Assembly: GCF_029688845.1 (NCBI RefSeq)
Contig: NZ_JARUKW010000006.1
Span: forward strand, 62,001 to 126,000
Source: Natronococcus sp. A-GB1
GTDB lineage: Archaea > Halobacteriota > Halobacteria > Halobacteriales > Natrialbaceae
DNA length: 64,000 nucleotides
Direction of reading: 5' to 3'
A model generated the notes under the pieces. That model did not search any database. It was not told the DNA's origin and saw nothing but the letters and a program-made list of their open reading frames with translations. Shown piece by piece: positions 16,318 through 62,566 of the stretch. The stretch's first letter is position 1; each line of letters starts with the position of its first letter. The translations under genes were made by a program, and so were the position numbers.

Positions 16318-16508
16318 CGACTCCAGTCGATCGGCTCCGAACGCTGACGATCGAATTCAACCGTCGGTTTTGCTTCAGGGCGGGATAGGGCCGGACAACT
16401 GTAGCTGCTCGAGCGGTCTCGACGGCGGATTTTCTTCCCGATCGGGAGGTCGTAGTTTCCGAAACGGTTTTGCGTACGAGTAGTGAGTGTCCGGATGGCA
16501 GAAAAGTC

Positions 16509-18323
16509 ATGTCACGAGATGACAACCCACGGCGAGCGGAGGGACAGACGGGCAAACGGGCGACCTCCTCGAGGCTTCGGCGTCGGGCCTTCCTCTCGAG
16601 TGCGGGGGTCGCTGCGGGGGCGCTAGCGTTTGGAACGCCGACGGTCGCGGCCGACGACTACCAGCCGGTCACCGACGTCCCCGGGTTCAGTTGCGATCAG
16701 CCGCAGTTCACCTGTGGACGGGAGGTCACCGCCGCAGACGGGATGGTCTCGACGGTCGATCCGATCGCCTCGGGGGTCGCAGCGCAGATCCTTCGGGAGG
16801 GCGGGAACGCGATCGACGCAGCCGTCGCGATCCAGTACGTGCTGACGGTGACCCAGCCCCACGGGTCGGGGATCGGCGGCGGCGGGTTCATGGTCGTTTA
16901 CGACGCCGACTCGGATACGGTCGAGTGCGTGAACAGCCGGGAGCGCGCCTCCCAAACCGCGTCGCCGGAGCTGTACCACTACGACGGCGAGTACGATCAA
17001 GACATCGAAACCGGCGAGGCGATGGGGACGCCGGGGACGGTCAAGGGCCTCGAGACGGCCCGCGAACGGTACGGGAGCTGCTCGCGCCGGCGGCTGATCG
17101 ACCCGGCGATCCGCCTCGCACGCGACGGGTTCACCGTCGACTGGTTCCTCGCCGAGGAGATCGCCGAAAACACCGACAAGTTCAACGACGCGGCCATCGA
17201 GACCTACAGCGACGACCAGGGGAACCTCTACGAGGAGGGCGACACGATGACCAACCCGGACCTCGCGGACACCCTCGAGTGCATCCAACGACGAGGGGCC
17301 GACGGCTTCTACGAGGGCCCGGTCGCGGCGGACATCGCCGCGACGATCCGGGAGTACGCTCGCGACCCCGACCAGGTCGTCGACGAGGACGACCTCTCGA
17401 GGTACGACGTCACGATCGACGACCCGGTCCGCAAGGAGTGGCGCGACGTCGAACTCGTTGGCCAGCCGATGCCGAGTTCGGGGCCGACGGTCGTCGCGAT
17501 GGTTCTGCGGATGCTCGAGTTCCTCGAGGTCGAGGAGTACGACATCCGCTCGGCGGAGAAGTACCACCTGATCGCCGAGTCGATCTACTCCGCCTGGGCC
17601 GATCGGATGGAGTACATGGGCGACGACGAGTTCGTCGACGTCCCCGTCGACGCCCTGCTCGACGACGACTACCTCCAGTCGCGGGCCGACCCCATCGAGT
17701 TCGGGGAGACGGTCTTCCCCGACGACGACGAGATGGGGCCGGGCCAGCCCGGGGAGACGACCCACTTCTCGGTCATCGACAAGTGGGGCAACGCCGTCTC
17801 CTACACCTCCACGATCGAGCAGTTCATGGGCTCGGGCAAGATGGTTCCCGGCCGCGGGTTCCTGCTCAACAACGAGCTTACCGACTTCGACGACGAGCCG
17901 GGCGGCCCGAACGAGCCCGACGCCTGGAAGCGCCCGCTGAGCAGTATGAGTCCGATGATCGTGATGCGGGACGGGAAACCGGAGTTTACGGCCGGCTCGC
18001 CGGGCGGCTGGGCGATCGTCAGCGCGACGTTCCAGTCGATCCTCCACCGCTACGACTACGGGCTGAGCCCGCTCGAGTCGATCACCGAGCCGTCGATCTA
18101 CACCCATCACTTCGGGGGTATCGAGTGGGACGAAGGGGTCCCGTCCGAGGCCCGAGACACCCTCACCAAGTGGGGCCACGAGGTCGACGACGAGCCGAGC
18201 GAGATCGGCAACGTCCAGGTCATCGCCAGCGAGGACGGCGTGCTGACGGGTGCGGCAGACCCGAACCGCGACGGGCAGGCCGTCGGCTTCGACCGTGCTC
18301 CCGGGCAAAGAAGCGACGACTGA
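16509..18323 (+). CDS. ggt: Gamma-glutamyltransferase, Tat-exported
   Basis: Hydrolyses or transfers the gamma-glutamyl group of glutathione-like peptides outside the cell. From ATG 16509, residues 20-49 form a twin-arginine signal (RRRAFLSSAGVAAGALAFG). The precursor is then expected to self-cleave at the Thr of GETTHFSVIDKWGN (the nucleophile of the small subunit). Other family features: SGIGGGGFMVVYD, ERASQTA, GTPGTVKGLE, PLSSMSPMIV and GSPGGWAI. Length 604 is normal. Haloarchaea use gamma-glutamylcysteine rather than glutathione as thiol, so that or poly-gamma-glutamate is a likely substrate. The gene sits between menD and menB and has no obvious link to quinone synthesis. Confidence 0.93.
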   Translation: MSRDDNPRRAEGQTGKRATSSRLRRRAFLSSAGVAAGALAFGTPTVAADDYQPVTDVPGFSCDQPQFTCGREVTAADGMVSTVDPIASGVAAQILREGGNAIDAAVAIQYVLTVTQPHGSGIGGGGFMVVYDADSDTVECVNSRERASQTASPELYHYDGEYDQDIETGEAMGTPGTVKGLETARERYGSCSRRRLIDPAIRLARDGFTVDWFLAEEIAENTDKFNDAAIETYSDDQGNLYEEGDTMTNPDLADTLECIQRRGADGFYEGPVAADIAATIREYARDPDQVVDEDDLSRYDVTIDDPVRKEWRDVELVGQPMPSSGPTVVAMVLRMLEFLEVEEYDIRSAEKYHLIAESIYSAWADRMEYMGDDEFVDVPVDALLDDDYLQSRADPIEFGETVFPDDDEMGPGQPGETTHFSVIDKWGNAVSYTSTIEQFMGSGKMVPGRGFLLNNELTDFDDEPGGPNEPDAWKRPLSSMSPMIVMRDGKPEFTAGSPGGWAIVSATFQSILHRYDYGLSPLESITEPSIYTHHFGGIEWDEGVPSEARDTLTKWGHEVDDEPSEIGNVQVIASEDGVLTGAADPNRDGQAVGFDRAPGQRSDD

Positions 18324-19170: not shown

Positions 19171-20064
19171 ATGGTTTCGGAACTCTTCGACGAGGCGCGC
19201 TGGGAGCCGATCGAGGACGTCGATCGGGACTTTCGCGACATCACGTACCACCGGGCGGTCGACTCGGGAACGGTCCGGATCGCCTTCGATCGGCCTGACG
19301 TTCGCAACGCCTTCCGGCCGGGCACGGTCGACGAGCTGTACGACGCACTCGAGCACGCGAAACGCCAGACGGACGTCGGCTGCATCCTGTTGACGGGGAA
19401 CGGCCCCTCGCCGAAGGACGGCGGCTGGGCGTTCTGTTCGGGCGGGGACCAGACGATTCGCGGGGAGGACGGCTACCAGTACGAGGGTGACGAAGAACGA
19501 GCCTCCGAGCAGGGTCGCTTGCACATCCTCGAGGTCCAGCGGCTGATCCGCCACATCCCGAAGGTCGTGGTCTGCGTCGTCCCCGGCTGGGCCGTCGGCG
19601 GCGGGCACTCGCTGCACGTCGTCTGCGACCTCACGCTCGCGAGCGAGGAACACGCGAAATTTCTCCAGACCGACCCCGACGTCGCGAGCTACGACGCCGG
19701 CTTCGGCTCCGCGTATCTCGCCAAACAGATCGGCCAGAAGAAGGCTCGCGAGGTCTTCTTCCTCGGAAAAACGTACTCGGCCGAGGAGGCCGCAGAGATG
19801 GGAATGGTCAACGAAGCCGTTCCCCACGACGAGCTCGAGGAGACCGCCCTCGAGTGGGGCGACCGTATCAACTCGAAGAGCCCGACGGCGATGCGGATGC
19901 TCAAGTACGCGTTCAACATGACCGACGATGGGATGGTCGGCCAGCAGGTGTTCGCGGGCGAGGCTACCCGACTGGGTTACATGACCGACGAGGCGGCGGA
20001 GGGCCGGGACGCCTTCGTCGAGGGCCGCGAGCCCGACTTCGACGACTACCCCTGGCACTACTGA
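19171..20064 (+). CDS. menB: 1,4-dihydroxy-2-naphthoyl-CoA synthase MenB
   Basis: A crotonase-fold enzyme that cyclises o-succinylbenzoyl-CoA to 1,4-dihydroxy-2-naphthoyl-CoA. 297 residues. Markers: RPDVRNAFRPGTVDEL, CSGGDQTIRGEDGYQ (oxyanion hole Gly-Gly-Asp typical of MenB), VVPGWAVGGGHSLHVVCDLTLAS, a conserved Tyr in ASYDAGFGSAYLA, and the C-terminal EGREPDFDDYPW that is specific to MenB. It follows vapBC rather than menD, so it needs its own promoter in 19094-19170. Confidence 0.95.
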   Translation: MVSELFDEARWEPIEDVDRDFRDITYHRAVDSGTVRIAFDRPDVRNAFRPGTVDELYDALEHAKRQTDVGCILLTGNGPSPKDGGWAFCSGGDQTIRGEDGYQYEGDEERASEQGRLHILEVQRLIRHIPKVVVCVVPGWAVGGGHSLHVVCDLTLASEEHAKFLQTDPDVASYDAGFGSAYLAKQIGQKKAREVFFLGKTYSAEEAAEMGMVNEAVPHDELEETALEWGDRINSKSPTAMRMLKYAFNMTDDGMVGQQVFAGEATRLGYMTDEAAEGRDAFVEGREPDFDDYPWHY

Positions 20065-20172
20065 GGAAAGATTGCCGCTATCGGCAACGATCGTCTCCAT
20101 ACCGTCGCCGACGGCGGTCGAAACCGACGGCGTGAGAAACCCATATGGCGCCTACGCCCCGACACTGGGGTA

Positions 20173-21477
20173 GTGTCCCTCCCCGATCGATCCGCGCTCT
20201 CCCGCCGTGAGTACGTTCGCGCGCTGGTCGCTACCGGCGGAGCGACGGCGCTGAGCGCCTGTCTCGAGCTGTCGGACAGCGAGAACGAGGACGAAGATCA
20301 GGTTCCCGCGGGCGTCGACGACCCGTCGTCGCTGCCCGAACGCCAGCACGCCTGGGACGGGTCCCTCCCGGCAGACGGGGACGAGAACGTTCGCCCGGCT
20401 GCACACCACGTCCTCGTCGCGCTGTCGCTGAACGACGGCGTCGAGAACGGAGGCGGTATCGATCCCGACGTCCGGGAGACCGTCGAGAACGCCCTCCAAA
20501 CGCTCGAGCGGGCCTACGAGCGGAGCAACGACGGCCTGTTGTTCACGATGGGGTACACGCCGTCGTACTTCGATCGGCTCGAGGAGCCGCTGCCGGAGTC
20601 GGTCGATCTCCCCGAACCCGAGCCGCTCCGCGAGGGTGAGACGCCCGCGCTCGACGAGTTCGACGCTCTCCTGCACCTCGCGAGCGATCGGCCCGAGGTC
20701 GTCCTCGAGGCCGAGGAGGGGCTGTTCGGCGAGCGGGAGTCGGTCAACGGGGTCGAACCCGAGGCGGAGCTCTCGGGAGTTTTCGACCGCGAGGACGACC
20801 GCCGTCGGACGGGGTTCGTCGGCGACGGGCTGCCGGCCGAACGGACCGACATCCCCGGCGTTCCGGAAACCGTCCCCGGGGATGCACCCTTCTTCATGGG
20901 GTTTCGCTCCGGGTTCGCCGACAGTCAGGCGAGCGAGGACCGCGTGACGATCGAGTCGGGGCCGTTCGCGGGTGGGACGACCCAGCAGGTGTCCTCGATG
21001 GAGATCAACCTCGAGCAGTGGTTCGACCAGGAGAACCACTACCAGCGCGTCTCGAAGCTGTTCAGCCCCAAACACGCCGACGAGGAGGCCGTCGGCGAGG
21101 TCGGGGAGGAACTCGGCGCAACGAACGGGCTGACGGACGAACGCATCGCGGCGACCGAGGACGACGCCCGAGGGCGGGGCGTCGTCGGCCACGCTCAGAA
21201 GGCCGCGCGGGCTCGAGAGGACGGCGAGCCCCCGCTCCTGCGACGGGACTTCAACACCGTCGACGGCGACCGACCCGGCCTCCACTTCCTCTCGCTGCAG
21301 CGGGAGATCGCCGACTTCGTCCGGGTTCGCGAGGCGATGAACGGGACGGATCTGGACGTCGCGACGGCGAACAACGGCATCCTACACTACCTCTTCGTCG
21401 ACCGGCGGGGGAACTATCTCGTCCCGCCGCGATCGCTGCGAGCGCTCCCGCCGGCCGATCCGGGCGATGATAGCTGA
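20173..21477 (+). CDS. DyP-like haem peroxidase lipoprotein
   Basis: 434 residues beginning at a GTG. The signal region RREYVRALVATGGATALSAC has twin arginines and a lipobox Cys (residue 31), so a Tat-exported lipoprotein is expected. The mature part has features I associate with dye-decolourising-peroxidase relatives: QWFDQENHYQRVSKLFSPKH, then PPLLRRDFN and GLHFLSLQREIADFVRVREAMNG, and a C-terminal FVDRRGNYLVPPRSLRALPP. The peroxidase call is by resemblance only, and the haem-ligand His was not fixed with certainty. It is followed 18 bases later by a P19-like lipoprotein gene. In bacteria, exported DyP proteins (EfeB) work with iron uptake, which suggests the same theme here. Confidence 0.6.
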   Translation: MSLPDRSALSRREYVRALVATGGATALSACLELSDSENEDEDQVPAGVDDPSSLPERQHAWDGSLPADGDENVRPAAHHVLVALSLNDGVENGGGIDPDVRETVENALQTLERAYERSNDGLLFTMGYTPSYFDRLEEPLPESVDLPEPEPLREGETPALDEFDALLHLASDRPEVVLEAEEGLFGERESVNGVEPEAELSGVFDREDDRRRTGFVGDGLPAERTDIPGVPETVPGDAPFFMGFRSGFADSQASEDRVTIESGPFAGGTTQQVSSMEINLEQWFDQENHYQRVSKLFSPKHADEEAVGEVGEELGATNGLTDERIAATEDDARGRGVVGHAQKAARAREDGEPPLLRRDFNTVDGDRPGLHFLSLQREIADFVRVREAMNGTDLDVATANNGILHYLFVDRRGNYLVPPRSLRALPPADPGDDS

Positions 21478-21495
21478 TCACGGTGCGAACGATAC

Positions 21496-22839
21496 ATGAA
21501 ACAGGAACGATACGACACGCGACGGACGATCGACCGCCGGACGCTCGTCCGGCGAACTGGCGCGCTCGCCGGAGCGGTCGCGCTTGCCGGCTGTACCGGA
21601 ACCGACGGAGACGGAACGGACGACGAGAACGGAGCCGACGACGGGAACGAGGACGACGACGTCGAGGCCGTCCCCGAGATCGTCGAGGTCGAGGACCCGC
21701 CCGAGGCGGTCTACGTGCCGACCCACCGCGAGCAGATGCGAACGCTCGAGCCGATCGAGGACGGCGACGTCGCGATCGCGCCGATGCTGTCGTACCCCCA
21801 TCCGTTCTGGATCGTCGCCGGCGGCGGCGAGGACTCGGTCGAGCGCGTCGACCCGGAGGAGGGCCACGGCGTCCATATGATGTTCACCGCCTGGGACCGG
21901 GAGACGGGGACGGTCCTCCCGGTCGACGACGGGGCGGAGCTCCGGGTGTTCCAGGACGGCGAGCAGGTCGGCTCGCCGCTGTCGCCCTGGACGATGCTCT
22001 CCCAGGAGATGGGCTTTCACTTCGGCGACAACGTCTCCTTGCCCGGCAACGGTAGCTACACCGTCGAGGTCGAGATGCCGGCGCTCTCGACCCGAAAGAC
22101 GGGTGGGCTCGAGGACCGACTGACCGAGGCTGCGAGCGCCAGCTTCGAGTTCGAGTACGACGAGGCGTTCCGCGAGGAGGTCGTCGACGGGGTCGAGTAT
22201 CTGGACGAGGAGCTGTGGGGCGAACGGGGCGCACTCGAGCCGATGGATCACGGAGAGCACGACCATCACGGCGAGGCTGACGATCACGGTCACGAAGACC
22301 ACAGCCACGACGACCACGGCGACGGGGGCGACCACGACGACCACGAACACGGCGACGAGAACGAGCACGCCCACCACGAGATCCCCTACTCCCAGCTCCC
22401 GCCGGCCGAGGAGTACCCCGGAACGCTGCTCCGCGAGGACGGCGCCGACGGGACCGAACCGCCGGACGACGCCGATCTCCCCCGAAGCGGGGACGCGGCG
22501 ATCGTCGCGACGCTGCTCGAGTCAGAGTCGCGGCTCGCGGGCGACGAGCGGTACCTGCTGGTCTCCCCGCGGACGCCGTACAACCGGGTGCCACTGGCGG
22601 ACGCAACGCTGGCCGCAACGGTCGAGCGCGATGACGGGTCCGGCACCGACACCGTCCTCGAACAGACCCTCGACGGCGAGTACGGACTTCACTACGGAGC
22701 CGAGGTCGCAGCCGAACCGGGCGACGACGTGACGGTGTCGTTCGAGGCGCCACCGCAGGTCGCCCGCCATCAGGGGTACGAGACCGCCTTCCTCGAGATG
22801 GAGCCCCTCGAGCTGACGGTGCCGGAGGAGACGGAATGA
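21496..22839 (+). CDS. P19/Tp34-like metal-binding lipoprotein with His-rich insert
   Basis: 447 residues. The Tat lipoprotein signal is RRTLVRRTGALAGAVALAGC (lipobox Cys about residue 33), followed by an acidic linker. Residues about 70-225 resemble the periplasmic high-affinity iron/copper-binding P19 fold (GHGVHMMFTAWDRETGTVLPV, and EMGFHFGDNVSLPGNGSYTVEVEM, which carry Met and His ligands). A stretch of about 43 residues (about 254-296) contains roughly 15 histidines with Asp and Glu and should bind transition metals. A second beta-rich domain of about 130 residues follows. Its stop overlaps the next gene (ATGA). Metal handling is inferred from fold and His content; iron is the best guess, copper possible. 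Confidence 0.7.
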   Translation: MKQERYDTRRTIDRRTLVRRTGALAGAVALAGCTGTDGDGTDDENGADDGNEDDDVEAVPEIVEVEDPPEAVYVPTHREQMRTLEPIEDGDVAIAPMLSYPHPFWIVAGGGEDSVERVDPEEGHGVHMMFTAWDRETGTVLPVDDGAELRVFQDGEQVGSPLSPWTMLSQEMGFHFGDNVSLPGNGSYTVEVEMPALSTRKTGGLEDRLTEAASASFEFEYDEAFREEVVDGVEYLDEELWGERGALEPMDHGEHDHHGEADDHGHEDHSHDDHGDGGDHDDHEHGDENEHAHHEIPYSQLPPAEEYPGTLLREDGADGTEPPDDADLPRSGDAAIVATLLESESRLAGDERYLLVSPRTPYNRVPLADATLAATVERDDGSGTDTVLEQTLDGEYGLHYGAEVAAEPGDDVTVSFEAPPQVARHQGYETAFLEMEPLELTVPEETE

Positions 22840-23666
22840 ACCCCGATCGGACGCGACGGGCGTTCGCGATCGTACTGGCCGCGCTCCTCGCCGTCGGCGT
22901 CCTCCTCCCGGCGACGGCGCTGGCCGGCGACAACGCGACGAGTTTCTACTTCGACGACGACGAGATCGCGGCCGAGCCGGGCGAGACGGTCGAACTGGAG
23001 CTGATCGCCAGCGATCACGGCGACCTCCACGGCAACGGGATCGACGAGCTCGAGGCGACCCTCGCATACGAGAGCGACCTCTTCGAGGTCGTCGACGTCG
23101 AACACGGTTCGATGCTCGCCGCGGGCGACTCCGACGCCGAGGTCGAGGGCTCGAGCAGCGTCGACGAGGGGACGGGGACGGTGACGATCGAACAGGAGCG
23201 AACGCCATCCGGCGACGGCGCGACCGCGTCCGACGTCGCGGCGACGATCACCCTCGCGGTCGCCGAGGACGCGGAAGCGACGAGCGAGACGATCGAGATC
23301 GCCGACGCGTCGACGACGCTGGTCACGGACTACCCGCAGGCGTCGTTCGAGTACGACGCAACCATCCACGTCGCCGGCGGTGACGGAGACGTGGCGGACG
23401 ACGAGGCTGACGACGCCGAGACCGACGGCGTGACCCTCGCCGACGACGTCGAGGAATCGAACGGCGACGACACGGACGCGGACGATGACAGTACGGTCGA
23501 CTCGGGCGATACCGCCGGAGCCGACGAGAACGGGACGGCCGACGACGCTGCGGACGACGCGGAGTCGAGCGGCGACGCCGACTCGGTCCCCGGCTTCGCC
23601 GTTCCGGCCGCCGTCGCCGGACTCACGCTCACGATCGCGCTCCTCGTCGCTCGCCGCCGAGTCTGA
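22836..23666 (+). CDS. Cohesin-domain surface protein with PGF-CTERM anchor
   Basis: 276 residues: a Sec-type signal peptide (about 1-31, ending ALAG), then a cohesin-like beta-sandwich (about 32-185; FDDDEIAAEPGETVELELIASD opening). A long Asp/Glu/Thr/Ser spacer follows (about 186-248), and the C-terminus is VPGFAVPAAVAGLTLTIALLVARRR. That end is a PGF-CTERM signal: the PGF motif, one helix and a basic cluster, which archaeosortase A removes to attach a lipid. The protein would therefore sit on the cell surface. It is co-translated with the P19-like gene and may present or scaffold it. Confidence 0.8.
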   Translation: MNPDRTRRAFAIVLAALLAVGVLLPATALAGDNATSFYFDDDEIAAEPGETVELELIASDHGDLHGNGIDELEATLAYESDLFEVVDVEHGSMLAAGDSDAEVEGSSSVDEGTGTVTIEQERTPSGDGATASDVAATITLAVAEDAEATSETIEIADASTTLVTDYPQASFEYDATIHVAGGDGDVADDEADDAETDGVTLADDVEESNGDDTDADDDSTVDSGDTAGADENGTADDAADDAESSGDADSVPGFAVPAAVAGLTLTIALLVARRRV

Positions 23667-23770
23667 GAGACGATTCTGTGTCGGGAGCAACGGCGGTTCG
23701 ACCGCGGGCTGAACGTCCGGTCGGCGTCAATGCCAACGTTGACACTTCCTCGAGTCGGAGTAGTCGGACA

Positions 23771-24712
23771 ATGAGTACGGCGGAGTTCGACATCTCGCGG
23801 ACGAAGGCGTGGGTGATGGCCGCGCGCCCGCAGACGTTGCCCGCGGCGGCGGCGCCGGTCATCGTCGGGGTCGGGATCGCGATCCACGAGGGCGTGTTCG
23901 CCCCGCTGCCGGCGCTGATGGCCTTCGTCGGCGCGGCGCTGATCCAGATCGGCACCAACTTCGCGAACGACTACTACGACGCGATCAAGGGGGCCGACAC
24001 GGAGGACCGAGAGGGGTTCACTCGAGTCACCCAGTCGGGGCTGATCCCGGCCGAACGGGTCAAGCTGGCGACGATCGTTACCTTCGGGCTGGCGATCCTC
24101 TCGGGGACCTACCTCGTCTACGTCGGGGGCGTGCCGATCCTCGTGATCGGCCTCGTCAGCGTTCTCTGCGGATGGGCCTACACGGGCGGTCCCTACCCGC
24201 TGGGGTATCACGGTCTCGGGGATCTGTTCGTGTTCGTCTTCTTCGGACTGGTCGCGGTGGTCGGTACGTTCTACGTCCAGGCTGCGGCCCAGCTCGAGCC
24301 GTTCATTACGACGTTGCCCGAGGGGACCGTGACCCGCGAGGCGATCCTCGCGAGCCTCCCGATCGCGGGACTCTCGACGGCGATCATCGTCGTCAACAAC
24401 GTCCGCGACAGGGAGACCGACGCCGAGACCGGGAAGCGGACCCTCGCCGTTCGACTGGGGTACCGGTGGAGTCGCCTCGAGTATCTCGCCCTGCTCGGGC
24501 TGGCGTATCTCGTCCCGCTGTGGTTCTGGCTCGGCGAGGGGTTCGACCCCGCAGTCCTGGTGCCGCTGGTTACGCTCCCCTACGCCGCAATGATCGGCCG
24601 CACCATGCTGACCCGCACCGACGGCGAGGCGCTCAACCCCGCCCTCGAGCAAACCGGAAAGCTGCTCGCGCTGTACGCCGTCCTGTTCGCCGGAGGGCTG
24701 GTGCTGGGATGA
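23771..24712 (+). CDS. menA: 1,4-dihydroxy-2-naphthoate prenyltransferase MenA
   Basis: Membrane UbiA-family enzyme attaching the isoprenoid tail to dihydroxynaphthoate. 313 residues with about eight or nine hydrophobic helices. The first Asp-rich metal site is NFANDYYDAIKGADT and the second is NNVRDRETDAETGKRTLAV, as in MenA. ATG 23771 is preferred over an upstream frame start at 23678, which lies in non-conserved sequence. The stop overlaps menC as ATGA. Confidence 0.95.
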   Translation: MSTAEFDISRTKAWVMAARPQTLPAAAAPVIVGVGIAIHEGVFAPLPALMAFVGAALIQIGTNFANDYYDAIKGADTEDREGFTRVTQSGLIPAERVKLATIVTFGLAILSGTYLVYVGGVPILVIGLVSVLCGWAYTGGPYPLGYHGLGDLFVFVFFGLVAVVGTFYVQAAAQLEPFITTLPEGTVTREAILASLPIAGLSTAIIVVNNVRDRETDAETGKRTLAVRLGYRWSRLEYLALLGLAYLVPLWFWLGEGFDPAVLVPLVTLPYAAMIGRTMLTRTDGEALNPALEQTGKLLALYAVLFAGGLVLG

Positions 24713-61933: not shown

Positions 61934-62566
61934 TCAGGCCACCTCCACGGACGGGCCCATCGTCGTCTTTACAAAGACGGAGTCGATGTTCTGGGGGCCC
62001 TTCTCGAGGTCGGCGTGCAGGCGCCGGAGGATCACGTCGATGTTGTCCGAGATGTCCTCGGCGTCCATGTCCTCGGCACCGACGCGCGTGTGGAACGTGC
62101 GGCGGTCCCGGGAGCGGATCTGCACGGTGTTTTTGAGCCGGTTGACGGTCTCGACGACGTCGTCGTCGGGACCGAGCGGGTCCGGCATCTTCCCTCGAGG
62201 ACCCAGGACGGTACCCAGGTATCGAGCGATATCTTGCATCATCGCCTCCTCGGCGATGAAGAACTGAGTCTCGTCCGCGAGGTCTTTGGCCTCGTCGTCG
62301 TCCAGATCGGCCACGTCGCTCTCCGAGAGTACCTCGTCCGCGACCTCTTCGGCGCGGACTGCGGTCTCGCCCTCGGCGATGACGACGATCTTGGTCTCTT
62401 GGCCGGTTCCGGACGGCAGGACGACCGACTCATCGACACGGTTCGACGGTTCGTTCAGGTCGAGATCGCGCAGGTTAATCGCGAGGTCGACCGTCTCGGT
62501 GAAGTTCCGATCGGGTGCGTCCTCGAGTGCGCGAGTGACTGCTGTTTGAATATCCGAATCTGCCAT
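61934..62566 (-). CDS. rpl1: Ribosomal protein L1
   Basis: 210 residues. Two-domain L1 with conserved [30 protein letters not shown] (signature) and [10 protein letters not shown] at the end. In archaea L1 also represses its own mRNA by binding a site mimicking its rRNA target; the structured leader upstream fits this. It starts at ATG 62566, with GGAGGTGA at 62577-62570 as ribosome binding site. Confidence 0.95.

Follow-up and report, generated by a model that had tools for sequence, protein, structure and literature searches.

Three consecutive genes of the haloarchaeon Natronococcus sp. A-GB1, located on the + strand at positions 20173–23666 of the 64,000-nucleotide stretch analysed here (the window; positions 62,001 to 126,000 of contig NZ_JARUKW010000006.1), encode a DyP-fold lipoprotein (P0001), a P19-derived lipoprotein (P0002) and a cohesin-domain protein (P0003). 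We propose that this trio constitutes an extracytoplasmic copper-handling module of haloarchaea and not an iron uptake system, a reading whose chances of being right or wrong appear to us about equal. Copper is favoured over iron because no FTR1 permease exceeds the family cut-off in 61 haloarchaeal genomes, because SCO1/SenC is linked to the P19-like family whereas FecCD is not, and because a P-type ATPase lies near a DyP–P19 pair on the Haloarcula plasmid pNG600. The computed evidence comprises the folds, the residue conservation, the co-conservation of the genes, the SCO1 linkage of the P19-like family and the lack of FTR1. A first-pass annotation, made from the letters of the window, had described three consecutive open reading frames here, the second and third overlapping by an ATGA; the frames are real, and so is the overlap.

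P0002 (447 aa, 21496..22839) carries a Tat motif and a lipobox (LAGC), matches the Pfam family Iron_transport/P19 (PF10634) at 26.4 bits (cut-off 21) and also matches DUF7350. Its AlphaFold model (pLDDT 88, 57 sequences) consists of a P19/FetP/FtrA domain, a linker and a second beta domain. Domain 1 (residues 79–230, 21730..22185; Z 12.2) contains the invariant residues H102, H127, M129, M167, M172 and H175, and profile alignment with eight bacterial P19 proteins (hhalign, probability 97%) places HLM of the P0002 family opposite HLE, and a segment of the type PMLSQEMGFHFGDN opposite one of the type PMVASDGPHYGDN. The copper ligands of Campylobacter jejuni P19 we take to be His42, Met88 and His95, of which Met88 is also named in a PDB title. 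Their positions correspond to H127, M167 and H175, each invariant in 57/57 sequences; the lack of P19 ligands raised at the outset as a refutation is not what is observed. Conversely, the residues proposed for the P19 iron site, Glu44, Asp46 and Asp92 (PMC9174327), are replaced by M129 (57/57), by T, S, V or A at position 131 and by M172 (57/57), respectively. Judged from these alignments, a site that combines His and Met with acidic residues in P19 has kept only His and Met in the P0002 family.

The linker (residues 252–294, 22249..22377) is the most His-rich 43-residue stretch and holds exactly 15 His, in line with the approximate count first noted alongside the Tat lipoprotein signal and the P19-type fold. 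In nearly all cohesin-linked proteins it has 10–28 His, and in most others it is Met-rich (PMEMEM-like). The DUF7350 domain that follows (domain 2, 22420..22818) is apparently a degenerate P19-like duplicate: hhalign relates it to domain 1 with a probability of 95%, and an Arg-His pair lost in domain 1 is kept here as the invariant R424-H425. No VIA-align match with Z > 8 covers domain 2, a result that establishes neither a new fold nor a known one for it. The fourth copper ligand of P19 is presumably His132, contributed, as we assume, by the partner subunit. An equivalent is absent from domain 1 of P0002; R424-H425 resembles this ligand, with a weak alignment between domain 2 and P19 (probability 10%). 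If the partner subunit does provide it in P19, domain 2 would hypothetically supply the fourth ligand within one chain. The genome of the window encodes one more protein of the P19/DUF7350 type, which likewise has a His-rich linker and is encoded next to a DUF2243 membrane protein (L170:8795-10459); CtaG, sought owing to that DUF2243 gene, was absent from 61/61 haloarchaeal genomes.

P0001 (434 aa, GTG start, 20173..21477) belongs to DUF7405 (505.8 bits against the family profile) and has a Tat motif (SRREYVR) and a lipobox (LSAC). It scored 15.7 bits against Dyp_perox_C, under the family cut-off of 20, and a sequence search of solved structures returned DyP proteins only marginally; therefore, its fold was compared instead. 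The AlphaFold model (pLDDT 90, 52 sequences) was matched by DyP peroxidases throughout, with EfeB on top (Z 26.7 over 319 residues), and Foldseek gave a probability of 1.00 for DyP. A profile alignment of the family with six EfeB/DyP-type proteins (hhalign) located the active-site positions. The catalytic Asp of the DyP motif GxxDG falls on codon 246 (20908..20910), a Ser in P0001 and in 50/52 DUF7405 sequences (GF(R/K)SG, compared with GFKDG in EfeB). The presumed proximal haem ligand, H340 (21190..21192), is a His in 52/52 sequences and aligns to the SHVR..ILRRG region of EfeB, with a one-residue gap needed before the His. R357 and R358 (21241..21246), likewise invariant (52/52), fall on the EfeB LRRG region, so that LRRD in P0001 is the equivalent of the DyP LRRG with its distal Arg. 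As H340, R357 and R358 are invariant but the GxxDG Asp has become Ser, P0001 should, on sequence grounds, still bind haem without being a canonical DyP. The initial description of a DyP-like Tat lipoprotein is supported by fold and predicted haem ligands alike, and the lack of a haem pocket that had been considered is not what the alignment shows. For some members of DUF7405, the RefSeq name is already “Dyp-type peroxidase”.

The distribution of these genes was followed in 61 haloarchaeal genomes for presence and in 80 named DyP loci for neighbourhood. DUF7405 occurs in 52/61 genomes and the P19-like protein in 54/61, and all 26 DUF7405-bearing genomes of a phylum-wide sample fall in the order to which the window belongs. 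In 69/80 loci the DyP gene has a P19-like gene no more than 3.5 kb away, which in 46/80 follows it immediately in the same orientation; the cohesin gene is found in only 27/80, mostly Natrialbaceae. Thus, the unit has the DyP–P19 pair at its core, with the cohesin as an extra, and the co-conservation that the first-pass annotation asked for holds for the pair. That three surface proteins merely share an operon in Natrialbaceae by chance, as the partial occurrence of the cohesin gene might suggest, is hardly credible, since conservation of the genes extends over many genera; for the pair it is contradicted by its persistence across several families, on plasmids as well as in otherwise unrelated gene neighbourhoods. 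Two loci (L084 and L104) retain the DyP gene but have neither a P19 nor a cohesin gene. This looks like a loss, as in L104 a short stretch after the DyP gene (L104:8434-8600) reads as the C-terminal tail of a cohesin gene, the apparent remnant of a deletion that would have taken P19 and most of the cohesin. These two loci, together with the absence of a P19 neighbour in 11/80 loci, are what would be expected if DUF7405 mainly bound or handled haem or peroxide at the surface, with the P19-like protein as an accessory. However, P19-type genes are also encountered next to SCO1 in the absence of DyP, which gives P19 a metal role of its own, and the catalytic Asp of the DyP protein is lost; a predominantly haem- or peroxide-directed system is accordingly very unlikely.

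Outside haloarchaea, a DUF7405 relative with 34.7% identity is encoded on a Streptomyces plasmid (L159:4998-6074), without an annotated P19 neighbour. Five assemblies (L142, L144, L145, L146 and L147) named as different haloarchaeal species and genera share, at 100% identity, a stretch of 19,272 bp that contains one DyP and two P19-like genes; it is the same kind of locus as that of pNG600, and reflects either recent plasmid spread or cross-contamination of the assemblies. Finally, a Tat lipoprotein about 180 residues long that contains the motif HWH/HYH...HWHF (cluster c53; L107:9804-10379, L108:11396-11938 and relatives) is encoded directly 3' of DyP–P19 in six loci and has no Pfam match.

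To distinguish copper from iron, linked genes and permeases were compared with known bacterial systems. EfeUOB comprises the DyP peroxidase EfeB, the cupredoxin/M75 protein EfeO and the FTR1 permease EfeU. Iron acquisition after the manner of EfeUOB or FetMP/FtrABCD, with the DyP and P19-like parts feeding some permease, is suggested by EfeB as the top structural match of P0001, by the P19 fold of P0002, by the RefSeq name “iron transporter” given to many P19-like proteins, and by the pairing of a Tat-exported DyP-fold protein with an exported lipoprotein of copper-site fold, which recalls EfeO/EfeB. Still, FTR1 was found above the family cut-off in 0/61 haloarchaeal genomes, with control searches giving matches, whereas FTR1 is among the annotated neighbours of the bacterial P19 proteins fetched. 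P0002 differs from EfeO in being P19-like without a Pfam M75 match, and P0001 differs from EfeB at the GxxDG Asp. With P19/FetMP and FtrABCD, which serve Fe2+ uptake in bacteria, P0002 shares the P19 fold and the aligned copper ligands; it differs in being a tandem two-domain protein with a His/Met linker and in having other residues, two of them Met, in place of the iron-site acids. Iron acquisition is, on this balance, distinctly unlikely. Of the earlier suggestion of a cell-surface metal system for iron or copper, the surface, lipid-anchored part is supported, and membership in EfeUOB- or P19-type iron uptake is not.

Further evidence for the copper-handling reading comes from a genome-wide linkage test over 95 P19-type genes. 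SCO1/SenC lies within 3.3 kb of 16/95 P19-like genes, in 16 genomes, compared to 0.41 expected; the Poisson test applied treats related genomes as independent. FecCD iron permeases, with 0.48 expected, were near 0/95. A frequent arrangement is a divergon in which P19, often with a membrane protein, faces SCO1 together with a thioredoxin of ResA type and a membrane protein resembling CcdA, the last of these labelled by eye and without a Pfam match. In more than 12 haloarchaeal genomes, P19-like paralogues stand divergently beside a set resembling the SCO1/SenC–ResA/TlpA–CcdA system of copper insertion; to our knowledge, neither P19-like nor DyP-like proteins are part of that set as described. 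On pNG600, the DyP–P19 pair adjoins another P19 gene, and a heavy-metal P-type ATPase is encoded nearby.

Copper need not imply acquisition. The His/Met-rich lipoprotein could be an extracellular copper sponge, with the DyP-like protein clearing peroxide made by copper, and such copper or silver detoxification is in line with the linker composition, the P-type ATPase near the pNG600 copy, and the CrdA copper-resistance fold, a weaker structural match to P0002 (Z 8.9). The main linked set of SCO1, thioredoxin and CcdA-like protein is, however, typical of copper insertion and not efflux, and the co-location with menaquinone genes (see below) suggests respiration, which makes detoxification unlikely.

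Several points weigh against the copper-handling module. The linkage test counts related genomes as independent, and the SCO1 linkage is carried mainly by paralogues of P0002 and not by the cohesin trio. At the locus of the window itself only men genes adjoin the trio, and no copper gene. DsbD_2, considered as a general partner of P19, was rejected, with 1 gene near and 0.35 expected genome-wide (not significant); it does adjoin DyP in several loci, and Halovenus and relatives have the order DsbD_2–DyP–P19 together with a His-rich lipoprotein. Bacterial P19 binds copper yet serves iron uptake, so that copper ligands alone do not exclude iron, and Zn and Ni are also bound by His-rich linkers.

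That no permease lies next to the trio was correctly observed for the genome of the window. In other genomes, a membrane protein of about 500 residues with about ten hydrophobic segments and conserved His403, His450 and His458 (cluster c21; L176:8619-10136 and relatives) is a candidate permease or partner: it has no Pfam or NCBIfam match, occurs in 29 genomes, in about a dozen of which its gene adjoins that of a P19-like or DyP protein, and is not found in the genome of the window.

The third gene encodes P0003 (276 aa, 22836..23666). The protein matches the Cohesin family PF00963 at 31 bits (cut-off 24.1), carries a Sec-type signal and has a C-terminal tail of PGF, helix and Arg; this PGF-CTERM-like anchor scored 17.5 bits, below the curated cut-off of 24.5, and an ArtA-type archaeosortase (TIGR04125) is encoded in the genome. 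Domain and anchor signal recall cohesin/dockerin surface assemblies. In contrast to these, the genome of the window (G000) gave no match for the partner, Dockerin_1, and a cellulosome-like role is therefore unlikely. Among the 21 genomes searched, Dockerin_1 is present in 6; one genome of the same order (G039) has 56 matches, compared to 0–2 in the other 20, and DUF7405 was not found there. The cohesin domain of the first-pass annotation is borne out and its archaeosortase signal corresponds to a weak match, whereas an essential place for the cohesin in the triad is not supported.

The best match to the window that bears a species name is N. amylolyticus, with 95% identity. With respect to its surroundings, the trio lies within a menaquinone cluster of the order menD, gamma-glutamyltranspeptidase, menB, trio, menA, menC and menE (gene names from sequence reading), a setting that the first-pass annotation left unmentioned. 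About 30 fetched loci and 24/80 named loci have the same arrangement, and in Natrialbaceae menB and menA flank the trio. The upstream neighbour menB (19171..20064, +), kept in Natrialbaceae, and the conserved downstream neighbour menA (23678..24712, +; true start probably the ATG at about 23772) are regarded as context and not as working parts. Between menB and P0001 lies a gap of 108 bp (20065..20172, +), the presumed promoter of the trio. As this gap is almost identical in the closest relatives, and as the sequence immediately 5' of menA is retained in N. jeotgali (L084), which lacks P0002 and P0003, the trio is probably transcribed from a promoter of its own. Its placement among men genes fits a respiratory role, as weak evidence when taken alone. 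The Tat-exported gamma-glutamyltranspeptidase-like gene within the cluster (window 16470-18323) was found, among the fetched loci, only in Natronococcus relatives. HerA/NurA, 5'-nucleotidase and beta-propeller neighbours, named partly by eye, were rejected as partners, being local rather than general.

From these data we infer copper binding, the direction of transfer, and the roles of the haem protein and the cohesin as follows. P0002, membrane-anchored and derived from the P19/FetP/FtrA fold, would offer a site of His and Met residues that suits copper, probably as Cu(I). The metal would be captured by the linker, whether His-rich as in this protein or Met-rich as in others, and domain 2 may, through its invariant Arg-His, contribute the part of the site that the partner subunit may supply in the P19 dimer. 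The probable role of P0001 is that of a redox partner, which either removes H2O2 in the vicinity of Cu(I) or controls the redox state of copper, and P0003 would be an optional surface tether or scaffold. Copper captured outside the membrane would be passed on, most likely for insertion into respiratory enzymes. More tentatively, and with somewhat greater doubt than belief, the system may be described as a hitherto undescribed one for archaeal extracytoplasmic copper acquisition and delivery, in which a tandem P19-derived copper protein operates with an Asp-lacking DyP-fold haem protein and, in some lineages, with a linked membrane permease candidate and SCO1/thioredoxin/CcdA-like receivers.

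DUF7405 and DUF7350 are already known as sequence families. A literature search retrieved no paper mentioning either of them, and a search for haloarchaeal DyP returned nothing on the present system; nor did the literature searched contain a description of the DyP–P19 pairing, the lost Asp, the exchange of acids for Met or the SCO1 link. Little is known of how copper is procured and placed outside the haloarchaeal membrane, though respiratory and denitrifying enzymes need it. If the copper-handling reading is true, proteins that carry an iron-transport annotation throughout haloarchaea would form a copper family, in which the P19 fold has exchanged an iron/copper site for a Met/His copper site, and the link of a DyP-fold haem protein to copper and not to iron could be tested on this example.

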